Assembly (NCBI RefSeq): GCF_014191495.1 | Contig: NZ_JACHWR010000001.1 | Coordinates: forward strand, 1,302,001 to 1,366,000 | Direction: 5' to 3' | DNA from: Nocardioides soli | Lineage (GTDB): Bacteria > Actinomycetota > Actinomycetes > Propionibacteriales > Nocardioidaceae | DNA length: 64,000 bases | Notes under the pieces: generated by a model | Told to the model about the DNA's origin: nothing | The model's database searches: none | Seen by the model: the letters and a program-made list of their open reading frames with translations, nothing else | Made by a program: the position numbers and the translations under genes | Part shown: in pieces, positions 11,778 to 42,401 of the stretch | How positions within the stretch are numbered: the first letter of the stretch is position 1 | Layout of the letters: the number at the start of each line of letters is the position of its first letter

Positions 11778-13397
<1,620 letters not shown>

Positions 13398-13462
13398 GTG
13401 GGGTCGCGAGAGCAACCCGCGGCCAGAAGCGACCGCGACCACAGGAGCAGGAGGAGCCCACG

Positions 13463-13702
13463 GTGAGTGACGAGGCATCCGCAACCCCGGAGACCGTGCC
13501 GCAGCGCCCGATGCTGCGCGTCGTCCACGGCGACGCCACGCCCGAGGAGATCGCGGCGATCGTCGCCGTGCTCGCCGCGGCCGGCGACGCCCCGTCGCCC
13601 GCGCCGCGGCGCGTGCCCGAGTGGGCGGCACACCACCGCCAGGTGCGACGCGCGCTGCCGCACGGGCCTGGTGGGTGGCGGTCCAGCGCGCTGCCACGCT
13701 GA
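13463..13702 (+). CDS. accE: Acyl-CoA carboxylase epsilon subunit
   Basis: A 79-residue protein starting at GTG 13463 behind a purine-rich AGGAGCAGGAGGAG run. It contains LRVVHGDATPEEIAAIVAVLAAA, the conserved core of actinobacterial AccE5-type epsilon subunits, which stabilise and activate the alpha-beta carboxylase complex. The Arg/Trp-rich tail is typical. It is 65 bp downstream of the beta subunit and clearly in the same transcript. Confidence 0.88.
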   Translation: MSDEASATPETVPQRPMLRVVHGDATPEEIAAIVAVLAAAGDAPSPAPRRVPEWAAHHRQVRRALPHGPGGWRSSALPR

Positions 13703-23470: not shown

Positions 23471-25270
23471 GTGCCCGAGAGCAAGCCGCTGCAGAAGGTC
23501 CTGATCGCCAACCGCGGAGAGATCGCGGTGCGGGTGATCCGGGCCTGCAAGGACGCCGGGATCGGAAGCGTGGCGGTCTACGCCGACCCCGACCGGGACG
23601 CGCTCTTCGTGCGGCTGGCCGACGAGGCCTACGCGCTGGGCGGAGCGACGCCCGCCGAGTCCTACCTCGACATCGCCAAGATCCTCGCGGTCGCCGAGCA
23701 GGCGGGCGCCGACTCGGTGCACCCCGGCTACGGCTTCCTGGCCGAGAACGCCGACTTCGCCCAGGCCGTGCTCGACGCCGGCCTGGTGTGGATCGGCCCG
23801 CCGCCGGCCGCGATCGAGGCGCTGGGCGACAAGGCGCGGGCCAAGCACATCGCCCAGAAGGCGAACGCCCCGCTCGCCCCCGGCACCAAGGACCCGGTCC
23901 AGGACGCCGACGAGGTCGTCGAGTTCGCGAAGGCCAACGGCCTGCCGGTCGCGATCAAGGCCGTCTTCGGCGGCGGCGGCCGCGGCCTCAAGGTCGCCCG
24001 CACGCTCGAGGAGATCCCCGACGCCTACGAGTCCGCGGTGCGCGAGGCGGTCACGGCGTTCGGCCGCGGCGAGTGCCTGGTCGAGAAGTTCCTCGACCGG
24101 CCGCGCCACGTCGAGACCCAGTGCCTGGCCGACGCCCATGGCAACGTCGTGGTGGTCTCCACCCGCGACTGCTCGCTGCAGCGCCGGCACCAGAAGCTGG
24201 TCGAGGAGGCGCCCGCCCCGTTCCTCACCGACGACCAGGTGGCCCGCCTCTACGAGTCCTCGAAGGCGATCCTGCGCGAGGCCGGCTACGTCGGCGCCGG
24301 CACCTGCGAGTTCCTCGTGGGCCGCGACGGCACCATCTCCTTCCTCGAGGTCAACACCCGGCTCCAGGTCGAGCACTGCGTCTCCGAGGAGGTGACCGGC
24401 ATCGACCTGGTGCGCGAGATGTTCCGGATCGCCGCCGGCGAGGCGCTCGGGTACGACGACCCGGAGGTGCGCGGCCACTCGATCGAGTTCCGCATCAACG
24501 CCGAGGACGGCGGCCGCAACTTCATGCCCGCCCCCGGCACGCTGTCGGCCTGGAGCCCGCCGCAGGGTCCGGGCGTGCGGATCGACGGGGGCTACGAGAA
24601 CGGCGAGACCGTACCCGGCTCGTTCGACTCCCTGATCGCCAAGCTGATCGTGACCGGCCGCGACCGCACCCAGGCGCTGGAGCGCTCGCGCCGCGCGCTC
24701 GACGAGTTCGTCGTCGACGGCATGCCGACCGTGATCCCCTTCCACCGCACGGTGGTCGACGACCCGGCGTACGTCGGCGCCTCCACGCCGTCCGGCGAGG
24801 GTGAGTTCACCGTCTACACCACGTGGATCGAGACCGACTTCGACAACCAGATCCAGCCCTACGGCGGCGACGTGGCCGAGGCCGAGGAGGCCGACGAGCG
24901 CCAGAAGGTCGTCGTCGAGGTCGGCGGCAAGCGGCTCGAGGTCGTGCTGCCCGGCGGGCTCAGCCAGACTCTGGGGGCAGGTCTGTCCGCCGGTGGCGGC
25001 GGGGCGAAGAAGCCGAAGCGCGCCGGCGGCAAGAAGGCCGGCGCGGCCGCGAGCGGCGACGCCGTCACCAGCCCCATGCAGGGCACGGTCGTGAAGGTCG
25101 TCGTCGAGGAGGGCCAGGAGGTCGCCGAGGGCGACACCGTGGTCGTCATCGAGGCGATGAAGATGGAGCAGCCGCTCAAGGCCCACAAGGCCGGCACCGT
25201 CACCGGCCTGCAGGCCGAGGTCGGCCAGACCGTGGCCAACGGCGCGGTGATCTGCGAACTCAAGGACTGA
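23471..25270 (+). CDS. accA3: Acetyl/propionyl-CoA carboxylase alpha subunit (biotin carboxylase + BCCP)
   Basis: A 599-residue AccA3-type subunit. The biotin carboxylase part has [35 protein letters not shown]-grasp [16 protein letters not shown] and [21 protein letters not shown]-terminal biotinyl domain has EAMKM (biotin Lys564 from this start). The alpha subunit carboxylates biotin with ATP and bicarbonate and passes CO2 to beta subunits such as the one at 11.8 kb. GTG 23471 was preferred because AGGAGGGG lies just upstream; ATG 23450 would add seven residues. It heads a plus-strand run of closely spaced genes. Confidence 0.93.
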
Positions 25271-25286: not shown

Positions 25287-26540
25287 ATGCTGCTCTCGGG
25301 CGATGTCCCCTACCCGGACACGATCGACGCCCTGGAGCAGGCGCTGCGCCAGGACCACGTGATCGTCCAGGAGACGCGCGCGTCCGGCGACACCAGCGGG
25401 GCGATGGCCCGGATCGGCGAACTGGTGTCGCGACTGCCCTTCGCGGCGTACGTCGCCGTGATCGACGCGCCGCCCGACGTGGACGCCGGCATCGACTCGT
25501 CGCGCTTCCTCGCCACCGCGCTGAGCCGGCGGATCGGCGAGCCCGGTCTCTACGTCGTCTCGGCGAGCGGCAGCCCCACCGGCGTCCGGGTCATCGGCAC
25601 GGGCTGGGACGAGACGCTCTTCAGCCTCCAGGCCAACACCGACAGCGACGCAGTCGAGGCCGCGAGCGGGAGCTACCTCCTCACCCCGACCGTCGACGTC
25701 GAGGCCGTGCTCCAGACCGCGCTCGCCGCCCCGCCGCAGAGCGAGGGACTCGACTACGAGGACGTCAGCCTCCCCGATACCGTCGTCGACGACCTCGCCG
25801 AACGGGAGCGGGACCTGCAACCGTACGAGCGGCCGAGCCGGTCCGACCTGGACGAGCCGCCGGAGCCGTGGAGCACCGGCAAGCGGTGGATGGTCGGGGT
25901 CGCCGTCGGCGCGGGCCTGCTGGCCGTGCTGCTCCAGAGCCTCGTCGGCTGGCCGGGCTGGCGTCGCCAGCGCGGCGACCGGACGAGCGACCGGCCGAGC
26001 ACTCGGGCGAGGGCCGCCGGCAGTCCTGCGCCTCCCGACATCGAGACCCTGCGGGCCGAGGCGGGCACCCAGCTCACCGCGCTCGCCGAGACGCTGCCGA
26101 CCGCGCCCGCCGGAGACCGGCACGACCGCGCCGCACTCGCGCGCGAGGTCGCCGAGCCACTGCTCGGCTCCGACGACGTCCTCGACGTCATGGGTGCGCT
26201 GGTGCTGGCCCGCGCCGGGCGCCGCGAGCTCGCCATCGCCCGGCGGCGCGCCACGGCGCCGTACGACGTCTGCTTCTTCGACCCGCGCCATGCCACCGCG
26301 ACCCAGGTGGCCGAGTGGCGCTTCGGCGACAGCGCGGTCGAGGTGCCGGTGTGTCGCGCGTGCCGGAAGGCGGTGAGCTCCGGCCGGGAGCCCGAGACCC
26401 TGAAGGTACGCCGGCACGGGCGGCTCCAGCCCTACTACGAGGGCGACTCGGTCTGGGCGCAGACCGGCTTCGGCAGCCTCGCCGCCGACCTCGGCGACCT
26501 CGCCTCGCGCGTGGCCGCCGCGAGGGGGCGGTCGCGATGA
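25287..26540 (+). CDS. Membrane protein of unknown function, Cys/His C-terminal domain (array gene 1)
   Basis: 417 residues, not recognised. Residues 1-150 form an alpha/beta-like domain (AAYVAVID, PGLYVVSAS strands) that vaguely recalls TPM domains. One transmembrane helix follows (about 201-221), then an Arg-rich stretch. The C-terminal domain (about 325-417) carries CFFDPRHATAT (Cys329, His335), VEVPVCRACRKAV (Cys356, Cys359) and VWAQTGFGSL. The Cys/His set looks like a metal site. The same C-terminal domain is in array gene 3. There is no signal peptide, so the N-domain side is undecided. It begins 16 bp after the carboxylase and overlaps array gene 2 by 4 bases. Confidence 0.85.
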   Translation: MLLSGDVPYPDTIDALEQALRQDHVIVQETRASGDTSGAMARIGELVSRLPFAAYVAVIDAPPDVDAGIDSSRFLATALSRRIGEPGLYVVSASGSPTGVRVIGTGWDETLFSLQANTDSDAVEAASGSYLLTPTVDVEAVLQTALAAPPQSEGLDYEDVSLPDTVVDDLAERERDLQPYERPSRSDLDEPPEPWSTGKRWMVGVAVGAGLLAVLLQSLVGWPGWRRQRGDRTSDRPSTRARAAGSPAPPDIETLRAEAGTQLTALAETLPTAPAGDRHDRAALAREVAEPLLGSDDVLDVMGALVLARAGRRELAIARRRATAPYDVCFFDPRHATATQVAEWRFGDSAVEVPVCRACRKAVSSGREPETLKVRRHGRLQPYYEGDSVWAQTGFGSLAADLGDLASRVAAARGRSR

Positions 26541-27214
26541 GGGTCCTCGGTGCCCTGCTGGCGGTGGTCGTCGCGGTCGGGGTCGGGCTGTTCGCCGGCC
26601 TGGTCCCCGGGCACCACGCGGTGCCGCCGGAGGTCGACTTCGACGACGCCATCCTGGCCGCGGCGGCGCAGGAGCCGCCCGGCGACCGAGTGCAGGCGGC
26701 GATCGACGGCGTGCGGGAGACCGGCTTCTACGTCGGGCCGGAGCTGCGCGACGAGCTGACCGACGACGAGGTCGCCACCGTCGAGCGGATCATCGCCACG
26801 GCTCCCGTGCCGGTCTTCGTCGTCTGGTGGGCGGACACCGCCGACGCCGGCTACAACACGACGTACGCCGCGCTCGACCAGCTGCGGGTGGGGGTCGGCG
26901 AGGACGGCTACTACGCGGTGGTGACCCGGGGCAGCTACCCACTCCTGGGGGCCCTCGGCTACCGCGATCCCTACGTCGACGCCGACGGCAAGGGCCGCGC
27001 GGGCGCGGCCCTGGAGCGGCTCGTCGACGAGCTGGCGGCGGTGCCGCCGGAGCGCGAGTTCGAGGGCGGTGACACGCGCTCGGACTACTGGGGCGGCACC
27101 GGCGGCGGCATCGCGGCCGGCCTGCTCTTCGCGGCGATCGGCTACCTCGGGCTGCTGGCGGTCGTCGGCCTCGTCGGTGCGCTGTCCCGCTCCGCTCGTG
27201 AGGGCCGCGGATGA
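26537..27214 (+). CDS. Two-TM protein of unknown function (array gene 2)
   Basis: 225 residues from ATG 26537, which overlaps gene 1 (ATGA). It has an N-terminal hydrophobic segment (about 5-25), a soluble middle with GFYVGPELRDELTDDE and VPVFVVWWADT, and a C-terminal helix (about 190-215, GIAAGLLFAAIGYLGLLAVVGLVGAL). The middle is clearly related to the N-terminal domain of array gene 3 (GVWVAPELRDQ, TPTYVALVD), but the Cys/His domain is missing. The soluble part is probably extracytoplasmic (inference from the two helices). Function unknown. Confidence 0.82.
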   Translation: MRVLGALLAVVVAVGVGLFAGLVPGHHAVPPEVDFDDAILAAAAQEPPGDRVQAAIDGVRETGFYVGPELRDELTDDEVATVERIIATAPVPVFVVWWADTADAGYNTTYAALDQLRVGVGEDGYYAVVTRGSYPLLGALGYRDPYVDADGKGRAGAALERLVDELAAVPPEREFEGGDTRSDYWGGTGGGIAAGLLFAAIGYLGLLAVVGLVGALSRSAREGRG

Positions 27215-28419
27215 CCCGGATCGACGAGGAGACCCTGCGACAGATCGAGGCCGAGCTCGGCGAGGACGGCGTCTGGGTCGCCCCCGAGCTCCGCGACCAG
27301 GTGCCGCACGACGTCGAGGCACAGATCGAGGCGGCGGCGGCCGAGGCGGACACGCCGACGTACGTCGCCCTCGTGGACCTCGACCACCGCGACCCGCTGA
27401 CGCACGGCGACGCCGGGGAGCTCGCGAACTACATCCGCGACGACACCGGCCGCTCCGGCGTGTACGTCGGGCTCGAGCCGCAGTACGGCGACGACCCCTA
27501 CGTCCTCGAGCTCACCAGCTTCCCCGACGACTCCGGGCTCTTCTACGCCGCGCGGGTCGCCTCGGCCGAGCACCCCGACGACCTCGGCGCCCAGGCGCTG
27601 CGGGTGCTCGAGCTGCTGAAGTCGGGCGACGCCGAGCGCCTCTACGAGCAGCTCGACCCCGAGGAGCGGTACCCCGGCGGCTCGTCCGGCGGGGACGACG
27701 GCGGGCTCGGCGCCGGAGCGCTGACCGGCATCGCCGTCGCGGTGCTCGCCCTGGTCGCCGTCGTCGTGACCGCGCGCCGTCGCCGGGCGCGGGCGCTGCC
27801 GGCCGCGCCCACCCCGACGGGGGCATCGTTCACGCTGCCGACCGCCGTGCTCAGCACCGTCCGGGCCGCCGAGGACCGCCGCACCGAGGGCCGGGCCCAG
27901 GCCGACGTGCTCGCTCTCGGCGAGGCGATCGACGCCGCCGAGCTCGACCCCCGGCACAGCGCGGGCCTGCCCGCGTGGCAGGCGGCGCTCGACCACTACG
28001 ACGTCGCGCGCCGCATCCTGGACCGCGACCACTCGCCCGCCGACGCCGTCGGCGCGATCGTGCTGGCCGGGCGGGGACGCTCCGCACTCGCCGCGGCCGT
28101 CGACGGTCGCGGCTGGGAGCCCGCGCCGAACTGCTACTTCAACCCACTGCACGAGGGCGCCACGACACCGGTGCTCTGGCGCGACGGCGAGTCCGGTGTC
28201 CGGGTGCCCGCCTGTGAGCGGTGCGCTCGCGCGGTGACCGGGGGCACCGAGCCCGACGACGTGCTCGACTTCGTCGCCGACGGGCGGCCGGCGCACTACT
28301 TCAAGCTCGACCTGGGCGCGTGGAGCCGCACCGGCTACGGCGCCCTCGACGGCGACCTCCTCGGGCGGCTGCTCGAGTCGGGCCGACGGGGTCGGAGCCG
28401 CCGCCGCTCCGCCCCGTAG
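27211..28419 (+). CDS. Membrane protein of unknown function, Cys/His C-terminal domain (array gene 3)
   Basis: 402 residues from ATG 27211, overlapping gene 2 (ATGA). The N-terminal domain (about 1-150) has GVWVAPELRDQ, TPTYVALVDLDHRD and SGVYVGLEPQYG. It ends in a Gly/Ser-rich linker, then a transmembrane helix (168-187) and an Arg-rich stop. The C-terminal domain repeats the pattern of gene 1: NCYFNPLHEGATT (Cys308, His314), VRVPACERCARAV (Cys335, Cys338), WSRTGYGAL. The conserved Cys-x-Phe-Asp/Asn-Pro-x-His and Cys-x-x-Cys suggest zinc binding. The PH-domain genes follow after 9 bp. Confidence 0.85.
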   Translation: MTRIDEETLRQIEAELGEDGVWVAPELRDQVPHDVEAQIEAAAAEADTPTYVALVDLDHRDPLTHGDAGELANYIRDDTGRSGVYVGLEPQYGDDPYVLELTSFPDDSGLFYAARVASAEHPDDLGAQALRVLELLKSGDAERLYEQLDPEERYPGGSSGGDDGGLGAGALTGIAVAVLALVAVVVTARRRRARALPAAPTPTGASFTLPTAVLSTVRAAEDRRTEGRAQADVLALGEAIDAAELDPRHSAGLPAWQAALDHYDVARRILDRDHSPADAVGAIVLAGRGRSALAAAVDGRGWEPAPNCYFNPLHEGATTPVLWRDGESGVRVPACERCARAVTGGTEPDDVLDFVADGRPAHYFKLDLGAWSRTGYGALDGDLLGRLLESGRRGRSRRRSAP

Positions 28420-28428
28420 GCTCGGGTC

Positions 28429-28929
28429 GTGACGGACTCCGAGGCCCGGCCACGCCTGCGCGAGCCCCGCCAGCGGGTGAGCCCCCGGGCGCGGCTGATG
28501 TGGGCGACGTCGGCGGGGCTCGAGGCGGTCGTGCTGGTCGCGGTCCTCGCCGTGGTCGGCCCGATCACCGACTGGCTCCCGATCCCCGGCTGGCTGGTCG
28601 CGCTGGTCGGCGTCCTCGCCGCGGCGTACGTCGTGGTGATGCCGCTCTGGCGCTACCGGGTGCACCGCTGGGAGGTCACCGACACCGCCGTCTACACCCA
28701 GACCGGCTGGTGGGTGCGTGAACGGCGGATCGCGCCCATGTCGCGGATCCAGACCGTCGACCACGCCGAGGGCGCGATCGCGCGGCTCTTCGGGCTCGCC
28801 ACCGTCACCGTCACCACGGCCTCGGCCGCCGGAGCACTCGAGATCGTCGGACTCGACCGCGGCCGCGCCCTCGAGCTGGTCGACCAGCTCGCGGTGCAGG
28901 CCGACACCGTGCCGGGCGACGCGACGTGA
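28429..28929 (+). CDS. Bacterial PH-domain (YdbS-like) membrane protein
   Basis: A 166-residue protein with two transmembrane helices (about 28-50 and 55-72), followed by a bPH2 domain: RWEVTDTAVYTQTGWWVRERRIAPMSRIQTVDHAEGAIARLFGLATVTVTTAS, the typical YdbS signature (R-I-Q-T/S-V and L-F-G-L-A-x-V). GTG start; it overlaps the larger YdbT-like gene by 4 bases. YdbS/YdbT pairs are known in Firmicutes and actinobacteria; in Bacillus they have been linked to resistance to a bacteriocin. The role here is unknown. Confidence 0.9.
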   Translation: MTDSEARPRLREPRQRVSPRARLMWATSAGLEAVVLVAVLAVVGPITDWLPIPGWLVALVGVLAAAYVVVMPLWRYRVHRWEVTDTAVYTQTGWWVRERRIAPMSRIQTVDHAEGAIARLFGLATVTVTTASAAGALEIVGLDRGRALELVDQLAVQADTVPGDAT

Positions 28930-30482
28930 CCGATCCCGAGACCGCACCGGAGACCCCGGAGGCCGGCGGGATCCCGGTGGCCGCGGAGGACGTCGCCTGG
29001 CGCCGGCTCGACCCGCGGATGCTGCTGATCTACCCGGTGCGCGAGCTGGTGCGCTTCCTGCCCGCGCTGCTGGCCATCTTCATCGCCGGCACCGCCGCCG
29101 GCCGGACCGACTGGTGGCACGGGCTCGGCATCGCGATCCCGGTCGCGCTCGGCCTGCTGCGGTACTTCACGACGTACTACCGGATCACCGCCGCCCGGGT
29201 CGAGCTGCGCCGCGGCCTGGTCAACCGGCACCTGCTGTCGACGCCGCTCGACCGGGTGCGCACCGTCGACGTCACCGCCTCGCTCACCCATCGGCTGCTG
29301 GGGCTCACCACGGTGCGGATCGGCACCGGCACGGCTTCGACCGACGACGAGGACCACCTCGACCTCGACGGCCTGCCGGTCGAGCACGCCCGGCGGCTCC
29401 GTGCCGAGCTGCTCCGACTCGGCGACGCCGGGAGCGAGGCCGCGCCCACCGACCGCGTGGTCGTGCGCTTCGACCCCGCCTGGGTGCGGTTCGCCCCGCT
29501 GACGACCACCGGCCTGGTGCTGGCCGGCGGTGCCCTCGGCGTGGCGGCCCAGACGCTCAACGCCGTCGGCGGCTTCGACGACCTCGACGCCGAGGGCATC
29601 GTCAACGGCGCGACCGGATGGTCGATCTGGCTCGCAGTGCCGATCGGGCTGGTGCTGCTGGCCATCCTCGTCTCCGCGCTGGCCATCACCGGGTACGTCG
29701 TCACCAACTGGGGCTTCACGCTCACCCACACCGGCCCCCGACGCCACGGCGCCTGGCACCTGCGCCGCGGCCTGCTCACCACCCGGGAGACGACCGTCGA
29801 CGACGAGCGCGTCAGCGGCGTGAGCATCGCGGACCCGCTCGCGCTGCGGGCCGCGCGCGGGGCGCGCGTCTCGGCGATCGTGACCGGCCTGGACCGCGGC
29901 CGGTCGGCCAGCTCGCTGCTGGCACCGCCCTGTCCGCGCCCGGTGGTCGACCGGGTTGCGGCCGAGGTGCTGGGCACCGTCGCACCGGTGCAGACGCCGC
30001 TCACCGGCCACGGACCCCGCGCCCGGGGGCGCCGCTACACCAGGGCGTCCGGACCGGTGCTCGTCGCGCTCGCGGTCGTCGTGGGTGCCGTCGCCGCCGG
30101 CGTGCTCGACACCTGGTGGCTGGTCACGCTGCTCGCGCTCCCGGCGGCGCTCCTGCTCGCCCACGACCGGGCCGCCGCACTCGGTCACGCGCTGGTCGAC
30201 CGGCACCTGGTCGCGCGCTCGGGCAGCCTCGATCGCCGGCGCGAGGCGCTCGCGGTGCGCGGCGTGATCGGCTGGAACCTGCGCGCCTCGTGGTTCCAGC
30301 GCCGGGCCGGCCTGACGACGCTGGTCGCGACCACGGCCGGCGGGCGGCAGGCGGTGACCGTGCTCGACGTACCGGTGGACACGGCGGTGGCACTCGCCCA
30401 CGACGCGATGCCCGAGTTGCTCGGGCAGTTCCTCGTCTCGCCGGAGACGAGCGCGCCGTCGCCCGCCGCGCCGGGCTTATAG
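28926..30482 (+). CDS. Bacterial PH-domain (YdbT-like) membrane protein
   Basis: A 518-residue protein with three bPH2-like units separated by pairs of transmembrane helices: YRITAARVELRRGLVNRHLLSTPLDRVRTVDVTASLTHRLLGLTTVRIGT (about 85-135), a degenerate second (WGFTLTHTG...VSIADPLALRAARGARV) and a third near the C-terminus (HLVARSGSLDRRREALAVRGVIGWNLRASWFQRRAGLTTL). This is the YdbT architecture. It overlaps the YdbS-like gene (GTGA) and ends 10 bp before pyruvate carboxylase. Function unknown; the pair is expected at the cytoplasmic membrane. Confidence 0.9.
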   Translation: MTDPETAPETPEAGGIPVAAEDVAWRRLDPRMLLIYPVRELVRFLPALLAIFIAGTAAGRTDWWHGLGIAIPVALGLLRYFTTYYRITAARVELRRGLVNRHLLSTPLDRVRTVDVTASLTHRLLGLTTVRIGTGTASTDDEDHLDLDGLPVEHARRLRAELLRLGDAGSEAAPTDRVVVRFDPAWVRFAPLTTTGLVLAGGALGVAAQTLNAVGGFDDLDAEGIVNGATGWSIWLAVPIGLVLLAILVSALAITGYVVTNWGFTLTHTGPRRHGAWHLRRGLLTTRETTVDDERVSGVSIADPLALRAARGARVSAIVTGLDRGRSASSLLAPPCPRPVVDRVAAEVLGTVAPVQTPLTGHGPRARGRRYTRASGPVLVALAVVVGAVAAGVLDTWWLVTLLALPAALLLAHDRAAALGHALVDRHLVARSGSLDRRREALAVRGVIGWNLRASWFQRRAGLTTLVATTAGGRQAVTVLDVPVDTAVALAHDAMPELLGQFLVSPETSAPSPAAPGL

Positions 30483-30492
30483 CGTGTCCGCC

Positions 30493-33400
30493 ATGTTCTC
30501 CAAGGTACTGGTGGCCAACCGGGGCGAGATCGCGATCCGAGCGTTCCGCGCGGCCTATGAGCTGGGTGCGCGCACCGTCGCGGTCTTCCCCTACGAGGAC
30601 CGCTGGTCCGAGCACCGGTTGAAGGCCGACGAGGCCTACGAGATCGGTGAGCGGGGCCACCCGGTGCGCGCCTACCTCGACCCCGAGGCGATCGTCGCGG
30701 TCGCGGTGCGGGCCGGTGCGGACGCCGTCTACCCGGGCTACGGCTTCCTGTCGGAGAACCCCGCGCTCGCCGAGGCGTGCGCCAACGCGGGCATCACCTT
30801 CATCGGTCCGACCTCCGAGGTGCTGGAGCTGACCGGCAACAAGGCGCGCGCGGTCGCCGCTGCCAAGGCGGCCGGCGTCCCGACGCTGGCGAGCGTCGAG
30901 CCCTCGACCGACCCGGACACGCTGATCGCGGCGGCCGCCGACCTGCCCTACCCGCTCTTCGTCAAGGCCGTGGCGGGCGGCGGCGGGCGCGGCATGCGGC
31001 GGGTCGACAACCCGAAGGACCTGCGCGACGCCGTCGAGACCTGCATGCGCGAGGCGGAGGGCGCCTTCGGCGACCCGACCGTCTTCATCGAGCAGGCCGT
31101 CGTCGACCCGCGGCACATCGAGGTGCAGATCCTCGCCGACGGCGCGGGCAACGTGATCCACCTCTTCGAGCGCGACTGCTCGGTGCAGCGGCGGCACCAG
31201 AAGGTCGTCGAGATCGCCCCGGCGCCCAACCTCGACCCGGAGCTGCGGGACCGGATGTGTGCCGACGCGGTGCGCTTCGCCCAGGAGATCGGCTACCGCA
31301 ACGCCGGCACCGTGGAGTTCCTGCTCGATCCGCAGGGCAACTACGTCTTCATCGAGATGAACCCGCGCATCCAGGTCGAGCACACCGTGACCGAGGAGGT
31401 CACCGACGTCGACCTCGTGCAGTCGCAGCTGCGGATCGCCTCCGGCGAGACGCTGGCCGACCTCGAGCTCGCGCAGGACACGGTCCAGCTGCGCGGCGCG
31501 GCGCTGCAGTGCCGGATCACCACCGAGGACCCCGCGAACAACTTCCGTCCCGACACCGGCGTGATCACGACGTACCGCTCCCCCGGCGGCGGCGGCGTCC
31601 GCGTCGACGGTGGCACGACGTACACCGGCGCGGAGGTCTCCGCGCACTTCGACTCGATGCTGGCCAAGCTCACCTGTCGCGGACGCACCTTCGAGAAGGC
31701 CGTCGAGAAGGCGCGCCGAGCGGTGGCGGAGTTCCGGATCCGCGGCGTCTCCACCAACATCCCGTTCCTGCAGGCGGTGCTCGCCGACCCCGACTTCGCG
31801 GCCGGCCGGGTGACGACGTCGTTCATCGAGACGCACCCGCAGCTGCTCCAGGCGCGCGGGTCGGGCGACCGCGGCAGCAAGCTGCTCAGCTACCTCGCCG
31901 ACGTGACCGTGAACCAGCCGCACGGCGCGGCGCCGGTCAGCCTCGACCCGGTCGCGAAGCTGCCGGCGGTCAACCTCGACGTGCCCGCGCCCGACGGCAC
32001 TCGGCAGCTGCTGCTCGAGGTCGGCCCGGCCGAGTTCGCGCGCCGGCTGCGCGCACAGAACGACGTCGCCGTCACCGACACGACCTTCCGCGACGCCCAC
32101 CAGTCCCTGCTCGCGACCCGGGTGCGCACCCGCGACCTGCTCGCGGTCGCCGGCCACGTCGCGCGCACGACGCCGGAGCTGTGGTCGCTGGAGTGCTGGG
32201 GCGGCGCGACGTACGACGTGGCGCTGCGCTTCCTCGCCGAGGACCCGTGGGAGCGGCTCGCCGCCCTGCGCCAGGCGGTGCCGAACATCTGCCTCCAGAT
32301 GCTGCTGCGCGGTCGCAACACCGTCGGCTACACGCCGTACCCGACCGACGTGACCAACGCCTTCGTCGAGGAGGCGGCCGCGACCGGCATCGACGTGTTC
32401 CGGGTCTTCGACGCCCTCAACGACGTCGAGCAGATGCGCCCGGCGATCGAGGCGGTCCGGGCGACCGGCACCGCGGTCGCCGAGGTCGCCCTGTGCTACA
32501 CCGGCGACCTGTCCGACCCCGCCGAGTCGCTCTACACGCTCGACTACTACCTGCGGCTGGCCGACGAGATCGTCGCGGCCGGCGCGCACGTGCTCGCGAT
32601 CAAGGACATGGCCGGCCTGCTGCGCGCGCCGGCGGCGCGGACCCTGGTGACCGCGCTGCGCGAGCGCTTCGACCTGCCCGTGCACCTGCACACCCACGAC
32701 ACCGCCGGTGGCCAGCTCGCGACGCTGGTCGCGGCGATCGAGGCCGGGGTCGACGCCGTCGACGCCGCGTCCGCGTCGATGGCCGGCACCACCTCCCAGC
32801 CACCGCTCTCGGCCCTGGTCTCGGCGACCGACCACAGCGACCGCGAGACCGGCCTGTCGCTGGGCGCCGTCAACGCCCTCGAGCCCTACTGGGAGGCGAC
32901 CCGGCGGGTCTACGCGCCGTTCGAGTCCGGCCTGCCCTCGCCCACCGGCCGGGTCTACCGGCACGAGATCCCCGGCGGTCAGCTCTCCAACCTGCGCCAG
33001 CAGGCGATCGCGCTCGGCCTCGGCGAGAAGTTCGAGCAGATCGAGGACATGTACGCCGCCGCCAACGACATCCTCGGCAACGTCCCGAAGGTGACGCCCT
33101 CGTCGAAGGTCATCGGCGACCTCGCGCTGCACCTGGTGGCCGTCGGCGCCGACCCGGCCGAGTTCGCCGAGAACCCCGGCCGGTTCGACATCCCCGACTC
33201 CGTCATCGGCTTCCTCAACGGCGAGCTCGGCGACCCGCCGGGCGGCTGGCCCGAGCCGTTCCGCACCAAGGCGCTCGAGGGCCGCAAGCACAAGCCGCCG
33301 CTCGAGACCCTCACCGACGAGCAGCGGGAGGCTCTCGACGGTGAGCGCCACACCACCAACCCGCGCCGCCGCCGGATGCTCAACGAGCTGCTCTTCCCCG

Positions 33401-33891
33401 GCCCGACCCGGGAGTTCACCGAGTCGCGCGCGACGTACGGCGACCTGTCGGTGGTGCCGACCCGGGAGTACCTCTACGGCCTGCGCCAGGGCGTCGAGCA
33501 CACCGTCGAGCTCGAGGAGGGCAAGACCCTGCTCTTCGGCATCCAGGCGATCAGCGACGCCGACGAGCGCGGCATCCGCACGGTGCTGGCCACGATCAAC
33601 GGCCAGCTCCGCCCGGTCAACGTGCGCGACCGCTCCATCGCGGCCGAGGTCGCCGCGGCCGAGAAGGCCGACAGCGGCCAGCCCGGCCACGTCGCCGCGC
33701 CGTTCCAGGGCGTCGTGACCGTGGTCGTCGCCCCGGGCGACAAGGTCGCCGCCGGCGACACCGTCGCGACCATCGAGGCCATGAAGATGGAGGCCTCGAT
33801 CACCGCCCCCGTCGCCGGGACCGTCGAGCGGATCGCGCTCTCCGGCACCCAGGCCGTCGACGGCGGCGACCTGGTGCTCGTGCTCTCGTAG
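30493..33891 (+). CDS. pyc: Pyruvate carboxylase
   Basis: Converts pyruvate, bicarbonate and ATP to oxaloacetate (anaplerosis). The 1132-residue protein has in order a biotin carboxylase domain (VLVANRGEIAIRAFRA, DAVYPGYGFLSENPALAEACA, ATP-grasp VKAVAGGGGRGMRRV, RDCSVQRRHQKVVEIAPAP), a carboxyltransferase domain (VTDTTFRDAHQSLLATRVRT, VLAIKDMAGLL, HLHTHDTAGGQ) and a biotinyl domain (EAMKM, Lys1098). This order is specific for single-chain PYC. ATG 30493 matches family starts; GTG 30484 is also in frame. It may be co-transcribed with the PH-domain genes, 10 bp upstream. Confidence 0.97.
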   Translation: MFSKVLVANRGEIAIRAFRAAYELGARTVAVFPYEDRWSEHRLKADEAYEIGERGHPVRAYLDPEAIVAVAVRAGADAVYPGYGFLSENPALAEACANAGITFIGPTSEVLELTGNKARAVAAAKAAGVPTLASVEPSTDPDTLIAAAADLPYPLFVKAVAGGGGRGMRRVDNPKDLRDAVETCMREAEGAFGDPTVFIEQAVVDPRHIEVQILADGAGNVIHLFERDCSVQRRHQKVVEIAPAPNLDPELRDRMCADAVRFAQEIGYRNAGTVEFLLDPQGNYVFIEMNPRIQVEHTVTEEVTDVDLVQSQLRIASGETLADLELAQDTVQLRGAALQCRITTEDPANNFRPDTGVITTYRSPGGGGVRVDGGTTYTGAEVSAHFDSMLAKLTCRGRTFEKAVEKARRAVAEFRIRGVSTNIPFLQAVLADPDFAAGRVTTSFIETHPQLLQARGSGDRGSKLLSYLADVTVNQPHGAAPVSLDPVAKLPAVNLDVPAPDGTRQLLLEVGPAEFARRLRAQNDVAVTDTTFRDAHQSLLATRVRTRDLLAVAGHVARTTPELWSLECWGGATYDVALRFLAEDPWERLAALRQAVPNICLQMLLRGRNTVGYTPYPTDVTNAFVEEAAATGIDVFRVFDALNDVEQMRPAIEAVRATGTAVAEVALCYTGDLSDPAESLYTLDYYLRLADEIVAAGAHVLAIKDMAGLLRAPAARTLVTALRERFDLPVHLHTHDTAGGQLATLVAAIEAGVDAVDAASASMAGTTSQPPLSALVSATDHSDRETGLSLGAVNALEPYWEATRRVYAPFESGLPSPTGRVYRHEIPGGQLSNLRQQAIALGLGEKFEQIEDMYAAANDILGNVPKVTPSSKVIGDLALHLVAVGADPAEFAENPGRFDIPDSVIGFLNGELGDPPGGWPEPFRTKALEGRKHKPPLETLTDEQREALDGERHTTNPRRRRMLNELLFPGPTREFTESRATYGDLSVVPTREYLYGLRQGVEHTVELEEGKTLLFGIQAISDADERGIRTVLATINGQLRPVNVRDRSIAAEVAAAEKADSGQPGHVAAPFQGVVTVVVAPGDKVAAGDTVATIEAMKMEASITAPVAGTVERIALSGTQAVDGGDLVLVLS

Positions 33892-41185: not shown

Positions 41186-41760
41186 CGCACCATACCTGTA
41201 TGACCACGCTTCTCCGGCACGACGTGATCGTGCGTGAGGGCCCCTACACCCGCGCAGAGCGAGACGCGGTGCCGCCGAACGGTCGCCACCATGAGCTCCT
41301 CGACGGGGTCCTGGTGATGACTCCGGCCCAAGGCGTCCGGCATCAGTCGATCGTCGGCAGCCTGGCGATCCTGCTGGCGGATCACGCGCCTCGTGATTGC
41401 AAGGTTCTACTCGGACCCTTCGACGTCGCGCTCGGCCCGGCGAGCATTCTCCAGCCCGACGTCCTGGTCGGCCGGCGAACCGACTTCACCGAGATCGATC
41501 TGCCGACCGCGCCGCTTCTCGCCGTTGAGGTGCTCTCCCCCTCCACCCGGCTCTTCGACCTCGGCCGCAAGAAGGAGCTCCTCGCCGAGGCCGGCTGCCC
41601 GTCGTACTGGACCATCGACCCCACCCGTCCGGAGCTCACCGTCTGGCAGCTCGACAACGACCGGTACGTCGCAGCCGAGCTCGTCGGGCCCGACGACACC
41701 TGGACCGCCACCGCGCCCTACCCGGTGACCATCACCCCGCGCGACCTCATCGACGACTGA
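41182..41760 (+). CDS. Uma2-family (PD-(D/E)XK-fold) protein, copy 1
   Basis: A 192-residue Uma2 (DUF820) protein. Motifs are HELLDGVLVM, the metal Asp in QPDVLVG, AVEVLSPST (catalytic Glu of the E-x-K-like core) and GRKKELLAEAGCPSYWTID. Uma2 proteins have a restriction-endonuclease fold; biological roles are poorly known and many are multi-copy. The start overlaps the GGCT gene; Met7 (41200) also fits the second copy's start. The 3' half is about 95% identical in DNA to copy 2. Confidence 0.88.
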   Translation: MTHHTCMTTLLRHDVIVREGPYTRAERDAVPPNGRHHELLDGVLVMTPAQGVRHQSIVGSLAILLADHAPRDCKVLLGPFDVALGPASILQPDVLVGRRTDFTEIDLPTAPLLAVEVLSPSTRLFDLGRKKELLAEAGCPSYWTIDPTRPELTVWQLDNDRYVAAELVGPDDTWTATAPYPVTITPRDLIDD

Positions 41761-41834
41761 GCACCCTGTGGATGACGACCGACGCCGTCCGGCGTGATCG
41801 CCGACGCTGGTGGGCATGGACCACAGGAGGCACC

Positions 41835-42401
41835 ATGGAGACCATGACCCTGTCCCGCGCCGACGTCATCGTCCGCGAGGGCCCCTACACCCGGGCCGAA
41901 CGCGACGCCCTGCCCGACGACGGCCGACGCCATGAGCTCCTCGACGGGGTGCTGGTGATGAGCCCGGCCCCGAGCATCCGGCATCAGCGCATCGTGTTCC
42001 GACTCGCCGTCACCCTCGACGCGGCCGCGCCGAAGACACACATCGTGCTGGTCGCTCCGACCGATGTCACTCTCGGCCCGACGACCGTGCTCGAACCCGA
42101 CGTCCTGGTCGGCCGGCGAACCGACTTCACCGAGATCGATCTGCCGACCGCGCCGCTGCTCGCCGTCGAGGTGCTCTCCCCCTCCACCCGGCTCTTCGAC
42201 CTCGGCCGCAAGAAGGAGCTCCTCGCCGAGGCCGGCTGCCCGTCGTACTGGACCATCGACCCCACCCGTCCGGAGCTCACCGTCTGGCAGCTGACCGACG
42301 GCCAGTACGTCGCAGCCGAGGTCGTCGGGCCCGACGACACCTGGACCGCCACCGCGCCCTACCCGGTGACCATCACCCCGCGCGACCTGCTCGACGACTG
42401 A
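41835..42401 (+). CDS. Uma2-family (PD-(D/E)XK-fold) protein, copy 2
   Basis: 188 residues from ATG 41835, with AGGAGG 4 nt upstream. Motifs are as in copy 1: HELLDGVLVMSP, EPDVLVGRRTDF, AVEVLSPSTRLFDLGRKK, CPSYWTIDPTRPE. The N-terminal half (about residues 1-85) differs substantially from copy 1, while codons for residues 86-188 are nearly the same in DNA. A 74-bp gap separates the copies, so they are a tandem pair. Retained Asp and Glu suggest the nuclease core is intact. Confidence 0.88.
   Translation: METMTLSRADVIVREGPYTRAERDALPDDGRRHELLDGVLVMSPAPSIRHQRIVFRLAVTLDAAAPKTHIVLVAPTDVTLGPTTVLEPDVLVGRRTDFTEIDLPTAPLLAVEVLSPSTRLFDLGRKKELLAEAGCPSYWTIDPTRPELTVWQLTDGQYVAAEVVGPDDTWTATAPYPVTITPRDLLDD

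Follow-up and report, generated by a model that had tools for sequence, protein, structure and literature searches.

What binds three small overlapping genes for membrane proteins into one unit, and why do they sit directly behind a pccA-like gene, which presumably encodes the alpha subunit of an acyl-CoA carboxylase? The question is raised by genes g1, g2 and g3 of Nocardioides soli, to which an earlier note drew attention and which lie in a window (the whole stretch of DNA analysed here) of 64,000 nucleotides of contig NZ_JACHWR010000001.1, positions 1,302,001 to 1,366,000 (GCF_014191495.1). We tentatively propose, giving it somewhat less than an even chance, that the three proteins are old paralogues that form one membrane complex acting as an assembly or docking scaffold. 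The computational support consists of gene order, shared domains, invariant ligands, models of g1 and g3 that resemble the TPM domain, the co-occurrence of the trio and its recurrent neighbourhood with pccA.

The kinship of the three proteins was addressed by profile comparison (hhalign) of their N-terminal domains (N-domains) and C-terminal domains (C-domains). The C-domains of g3 and g1 match each other at 99.9%, and with an E-value of 4.7e-18 in a search of the window's own genome, while the N-domains match at 97.9% (g3 and g1), 97.8% (g3 and g2) and 87.5% (g1 and g2). A profile built from 20 N-domains of one-gene and paired relatives also matches g3 (98.3%), g1 (96.5%) and g2 (96.8%), and control pairs gave no match (g3 N-domain against g3 C-domain, 0.2%; g3 and g1 C-domains against TPM proteins, 0.5% and 0.1%). 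By these profiles, the N-domains of all three proteins and the C-domains of g1 and g3 are related by common ancestry beyond chance, as the earlier note had supposed, and g2 indeed consists of the N-domain type plus two transmembrane (TM) helices without the Cys/His module that ends the other two. Within the same genome the g3 protein finds the window locus as its sole match; the C-domain profile finds one further copy, a stand-alone protein of 260 amino acids (aa) with a C-H-C-D version of the module (G000:C1:517182-517964), which lies away from the window's pccA.

The Cys/His module reads C329-FFDPR-H335 ... VPV-C356-RA-C359 ... T393GFG in g1 and C308-YFNPL-H314 ... VPA-C335-ER-C338 ... T374GYG in g3. 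The four putative ligands are invariant in all 42 aligned g1 rows (the window and 41 of 44 hits, three omitted) and all 86 g3 rows (the window and 85 of 94 hits, nine omitted), and the motifs of the two window proteins are as pointed out earlier; in the trio loci, C, H, C, C is found in 28/28 unsplit g3 and 29/29 g1 genes (26 by script, 3 by eye). Outside the trio the fourth position is less strict: among 79 C-domain proteins from the named loci, almost all of which are stand-alone forms (L124 being a full TPM form), 77 keep C, H, C and have Asp there, and the other two are unmatched by the pattern; one-gene and paired forms have either Cys or Asp. The earlier note had held that homologues occurring singly, with no conserved neighbours and variable Cys/His positions, would speak against a common system; single homologues do exist and the fourth ligand does vary outside the trio, but C, H, C are kept and a conserved neighbour is often present. 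In the g3 model, a hairpin (319-325, 328-334) follows the first ligand pair, and a helix (336-343) starts with the second. Four invariant Cys/His ligands in two pairs around a hairpin, the second pair at a helix start, suggest a module in treble-clef order, and the Cys/His domains of g1 and g3 are predicted to bind zinc. The g1 and g3 models share this arrangement with known treble-clef and zinc-ribbon modules, from which the trio differs in its first pair, C-x5-H, and in being a module barely covered by the structure searches. A protein at L190:5312-6631 combines pentapeptide-like repeats and a membrane helix with the C-domain's helical part but has no Cys/His module; this helical part may be a mobile unit by itself.

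For the N-domains, a weak resemblance to TPM had been remarked upon, and the structural models of g1 and g3 do have TPM domains as their best matches in a second look with VIA-align. Since no Foldseek hit fell under 0.001 for either model, the assignment rests on VIA-align together with the TPM entries that head the weak Foldseek lists; on these models the N-domains of g1 and g3 are predicted to have the TPM fold, and that of g2 probably shares it through its profile match to g3. At the level of sequence, Pfam returned no match to the TPM domain family PF04536 for any of the three proteins up to an E-value of 10, and hhalign of the trio against TPM proteins of the same order was insignificant (4.8%, 2.5% and 18.8%, with a small TPM profile of 24 sequences). 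All three proteins stay below every Pfam and NCBIfam cut-off, in line with the earlier statement that no named family was recognised; NCBIfam and PADLOC searches gave nothing useful, and a PDB sequence search gave chance-level hits only. The window proteins and their relatives also gave weak Pfam hits (WcbI, DUF4690, COX7a and the like), which were put down to chance. A paired protein of L034 matches DUF5129 (PF17173) at E 4e-4, under its cut-off, and a one-gene protein shows a weak match to it. Against the Rv1476 family (PF20381), 11 of the 86 g3 rows score weakly, with E 4e-4 at best, although window g3 itself is unmatched at E 0.05, and no match at E 0.001 was found in 30 related genomes, the window's own included; Rv1476 is not known to have a Cys/His domain.

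The trio is compared most closely with the TPM proteins of PF04536 (TLP18.3, Psb32, cg2496, BA41/BA42, CcoZ and Msmeg_4692), with which it shares the fold predicted for the N-domains of g1 and g3 and their predicted place outside the membrane. It differs in giving no PF04536 match, in carrying a helical and Cys/His domain across the membrane, in comprising three genes rather than one and in the two TM helices of g2, and it is a variant of TPM-fold membrane proteins whose C-terminal domain lacks a curated family in the searches made. The likeness of the N-domain fold to TLP18.3 and BA41 would also suit a phosphatase or nucleotidase of the TPM type, and TPM proteins reportedly have acid phosphatase or ATPase/ADPase activity, as is claimed in the titles of cited papers. 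However, the near-invariant residues of the g3 N-domain (G20, P25, V52, D61, G66, A117 and D124) do not, by eye, look like a metal-binding catalytic set, and the available parts of two papers doubt such activity of TPM proteins (PMC11237479) or call it unlikely (PMC12419801), which makes an enzymatic role very improbable.

The orientation of these domains was read from the charges flanking the helices. In 86/86 g3 and 41/42 g1 rows, the flank C-terminal to the helix carries the higher net charge, as it does for TM2 of g2 in 25/25 (an alignment with 2 of 26 hits omitted), and the pattern is reversed for TM1 of g2 in 24/25; stand-alone C-domain proteins have the higher charge C-terminal of the helix in 81/90 and the opposite in 7. 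The N-domains are therefore predicted to lie outside and the C-domains inside, that is, TPM domains outside the membrane and Cys/His domains in the cytosol, though g1 and g3 show no signal peptide. A signal peptide-like N-terminal hydrophobic segment was seen in all 11 one-gene relatives and all seven trio members of family f3 examined.

Whether the three genes form a unit was followed in a sample of 118 genomes of the genus and 246 of the class, both draws from larger groups. The g2 profile matches 27 of the genus-sample genomes, the window's own included, and in every one of them g1, g2 and g3 adjoin, so that the trio does stay together, as had been asked of a true system. The order in the 26 other loci is g1-g2-g3 in 21 and g3-g1-g2 in five, and in three loci (L023, L207 and L208) two complete trios stand in tandem, making six tightly spaced genes from pccA to the PH-domain genes; gene calling breaks up g3 in L214 and g2 in L024. 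Three-gene sets also occur beyond the genus, in families f21 (L197) and f3 (L026-L030), the middle genes of the latter scoring weakly with the profiles used (28 to 38 bits at best). In a tree of 63 chosen C-domains, whose bootstrap is not fully settled, support of 100/100 sets all trio members apart from the one-gene, paired and stand-alone forms; g1 of f21, a long branch, joins the g1 group and g3 of f21 the g3 group (99/95 each), and the f3 rows fall into two separate, unplaced clades. Because the f21 proteins group with their counterparts, the duplication of g1 and g3 appears, on the tree, to be old, either predating the divergence of families f1 and f21 or handed as a whole from one to the other; together with the profile matches, the tree bears out the proposed origin by duplication. 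A tandem two-gene version of TPM, TM and C-domain proteins, with overlapping genes, is found in L034, L040 and L196 (f4, f3 and f21 genomes) and is separate from the trio in the tree.

These placements also bear on the view that the neighbourhood is an old conserved housekeeping order without functional meaning, and that the trio comprises lineage-specific paralogues that each work alone. Homologues do occur singly, and homologues of the window genes that we take to be lpd-, AIG2- and PNP-like also stay near pccA. Yet six of the 26 other trios lie elsewhere, behind a gene of 1067-1109 aa (an isoleucyl-type tRNA synthetase, a name that rests on a Pfam scan of the L024 copy), and still hold all three genes; the overlapping starts of the trio genes and the grouping of matching f1 and f21 subunits in the tree likewise argue against it, and we consider it quite unlikely.

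The C-domain itself is not private to the trio but class-wide, and is often found near pccA. Its profile matches 85/118 genomes of the genus sample and 103/246 of the class sample (40/95 genera); among the named genera with stand-alone forms are Microlunatus, Kribbella, Brevibacterium, Mumia and Tessaracoccus, and in several families one gene encodes a signal-like segment, a TPM-like domain, a helix and the C-domain. The domain is therefore present in about four in ten sampled class genomes, yet lies over no Pfam or NCBIfam cut-off in the proteins scanned. Of 80 genomes outside the genus, at least 53, from 10 of 15 families, have the domain downstream of pccA, on its strand and no more than 6 kb away; in at least 26 the distance is no more than 1.5 kb. 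These counts, which cover 80 of the 91 non-genus C-domain genomes (11 further f20 genomes were left out), are lower bounds drawn from the matches listed, secondary ones being partly omitted, and five of the 80 were scored as misses, three without a pccA over threshold and two without a listed C-domain match. No C-domain was near pccA among the matches listed for f1 (2 genomes), f11 (1), f20 (11), f40 (1) and f43 (1), and among the 80 named loci the C-domain gene directly follows a carboxylase gene in 13/79. As for the trio, it directly follows pccA in the window and in 14 of the 26 other loci, and a single gene separates the two in three more; three trios, besides the six mentioned above, are located elsewhere, among them that of L228, at the end of a contig.

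Such recurrence across families offers a concrete hypothesis tying acyl-CoA supply to the membrane. The C-domain gene downstream of pccA in the families counted, and pccA directly upstream of so many trios, would fit a protein dedicated to acyl-CoA carboxylase, as its regulator or its anchor at the membrane, that tethers the biotin carboxylase subunit through its cytosolic Cys/His domain. This is unlikely, though not negligibly so: the C-domain is not beside pccA in f20 (0/11), nor are the six trios behind the synthetase-type gene and the f3 and f21 trios, and a lasting gene order is by itself no proof of contact. A broader version, in which a class-wide actinobacterial scaffold with a TPM-fold domain outside and a treble-clef zinc domain in the cytosol brings acyl-CoA carboxylase to the membrane and couples the supply of lipid precursors to envelope assembly, with a three-subunit complex in the Nocardioides group, seems decidedly doubtful. 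Literature searches found no papers linking TPM_phosphatase to acyl-CoA carboxylase or TPM domain-containing protein to Streptomyces, and none joining accA3 to membrane protein, gene neighborhood and biotin carboxylase.

Other neighbours of the trio raise a different possibility, namely an envelope-stress sensor like the PSP and Lia systems, in which the outer domains would sense damage and the inner Cys/His domains relay it, together with PH or toastrack proteins. In the window, PH-domain genes come after the trio, as they do in 8 of the 26 other loci, one of which has another gene in between. One f3 trio (L026) is adjoined by a toastrack protein (DUF4097, E 3.8e-24) with DUF6458 beyond, three of the four remaining f3 loci have a gene of equal length at that place (judged by size), and the available part of Ravi et al. 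(PMC11237479) ties toastrack and TPM to systems of the PSP type. The trio thus shares with PSP/Lia partners (toastrack, PspC and YdjH-TPM) a toastrack gene beside an f3 set and a membrane-anchored TPM-fold domain. It differs in that inspection by eye of its surroundings revealed no kinase, regulator, PspA or PspC, the neighbours being scanned in part; moreover, toastrack was seen beside f3 trios only, other neighbours not having been scanned, and in most trio loci the nearby genes displayed include no PH gene. Stress sensing is accordingly an improbable role, though one that keeps some weight.

The favoured reading remains the assembly or docking scaffold, and it is drawn by analogy because published TPM proteins help membrane complexes. 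In the available parts of the works cited, TPM proteins are read as chaperone-like helpers of membrane complexes by Ravi et al. (PMC11237479), a view likewise held in PMC12419801; TLP18.3 is put on photosystem II through cross-links and docking (PMC13089150); and Campylobacter without CcoZ, a TPM protein modelled on Msmeg_4692, has lowered but not abolished cbb3 oxidase activity (PMC8267372). Msmeg_4692, itself a TPM protein, is a subunit of the mycobacterial supercomplex. By analogy with such proteins, which assist the assembly or upkeep of respiratory and photosynthetic complexes, g1, g2 and g3 would join in one three-way membrane complex, whose three TPM-fold domains, predicted outside the membrane, and two cytosolic, putatively zinc-binding Cys/His domains would offer docking sites for other proteins. 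Acyl-CoA carboxylase, suggested by the neighbourhood alone, would be the best candidate partner, through the cytosolic domain. The stand-alone C-domain proteins and the one-gene proteins of TPM domain, TM helix and C-domain may be simpler versions of the scaffold, which the trio would divide into three subunits. Two findings weigh against this: the trio is patchy, with no g2 in 91 of the 118 genus-sample genomes, and a signal-like N-terminal segment is found in none of the 86 g3 rows and only one of the 42 g1 rows of the window's kind. The trio is a case of TPM-fold proteins held as a fixed set of paralogues.

Table 1. Features of the trio locus, in window positions.
Feature	Position	Strand	Remark
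pccA-like acyl-CoA carboxylase alpha subunit (biotin carboxylase + biotin carrier)	23471..25270	+	name by sequence recognition
g1, 417 aa: N-domain of predicted TPM fold, a single TM helix and a helical C-terminal bundle that carries the Cys/His module	25287..26540	+	
g1 predicted TPM-fold domain, residues 11-157	25317..25757	+	
g1 transmembrane helix, residues 197-220 in model	25875..25946	+	
g1 Cys/His module: C329, H335, C356, C359, then TGFG	26271..26474	+	aligned set
g2, 225 aa: TM, N-domain of g1/g3 type, SDYWGGTGGGI motif, TM	26537..27214	+	
g2 SDYWGGTGGGIAAG motif, start of TM2	27080..27121	+	matching SHYWGGTGGMITAG in f21 g2
g3, 402 aa: N-domain of predicted TPM fold, a single TM helix and a helical C-terminal bundle that carries the Cys/His module	27211..28419	+	
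g3 predicted TPM-fold domain, residues 1-145	27211..27645	+	
g3 transmembrane helix, residues 174-189 in model, then RRRR	27730..27777	+	
g3 three-helix bundle of C-terminal domain	27841..28101	+	model
g3 Cys/His module: C308, H314, C335, C338, then TGYG	28132..28341	+	aligned set
PH-domain membrane protein	28429..28929	+	bPH_2 E 1e-16 (Pfam)
PH-domain membrane protein, three bPH_2 stretches	28926..30482	+	E 1.4e-28 (Pfam)
Pyruvate carboxylase	30484..33891	+	name by sequence recognition

The layout of the locus is as the earlier note described it, with both junctions within the trio reading ATGA, so that each start codon overlaps the preceding stop (-4), and with the trio set between a biotin carboxylase subunit, PH proteins (bPH_2 by Pfam) and pyruvate carboxylase. 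The two outer genes we take, by sequence recognition without a family scan, to be the carboxylase alpha subunit and pyruvate carboxylase. Sixteen bases separate pccA from g1 and nine separate g3 from the first PH gene, the PH genes overlap by 4, and a single base precedes pyruvate carboxylase; from this tight packing, the run from pccA to pyruvate carboxylase is likely to be one transcript. Elsewhere in the window, 11778-13702 holds a presumably carboxyltransferase-like gene followed by a 79-aa gene that we assume to resemble the epsilon subunit of acyl-CoA carboxylase; homologues of both adjoin pccA in L194 and L201, where a C-domain gene lies near them. Two similar adjoining genes at 41200-42401 are presumably Uma2-like.

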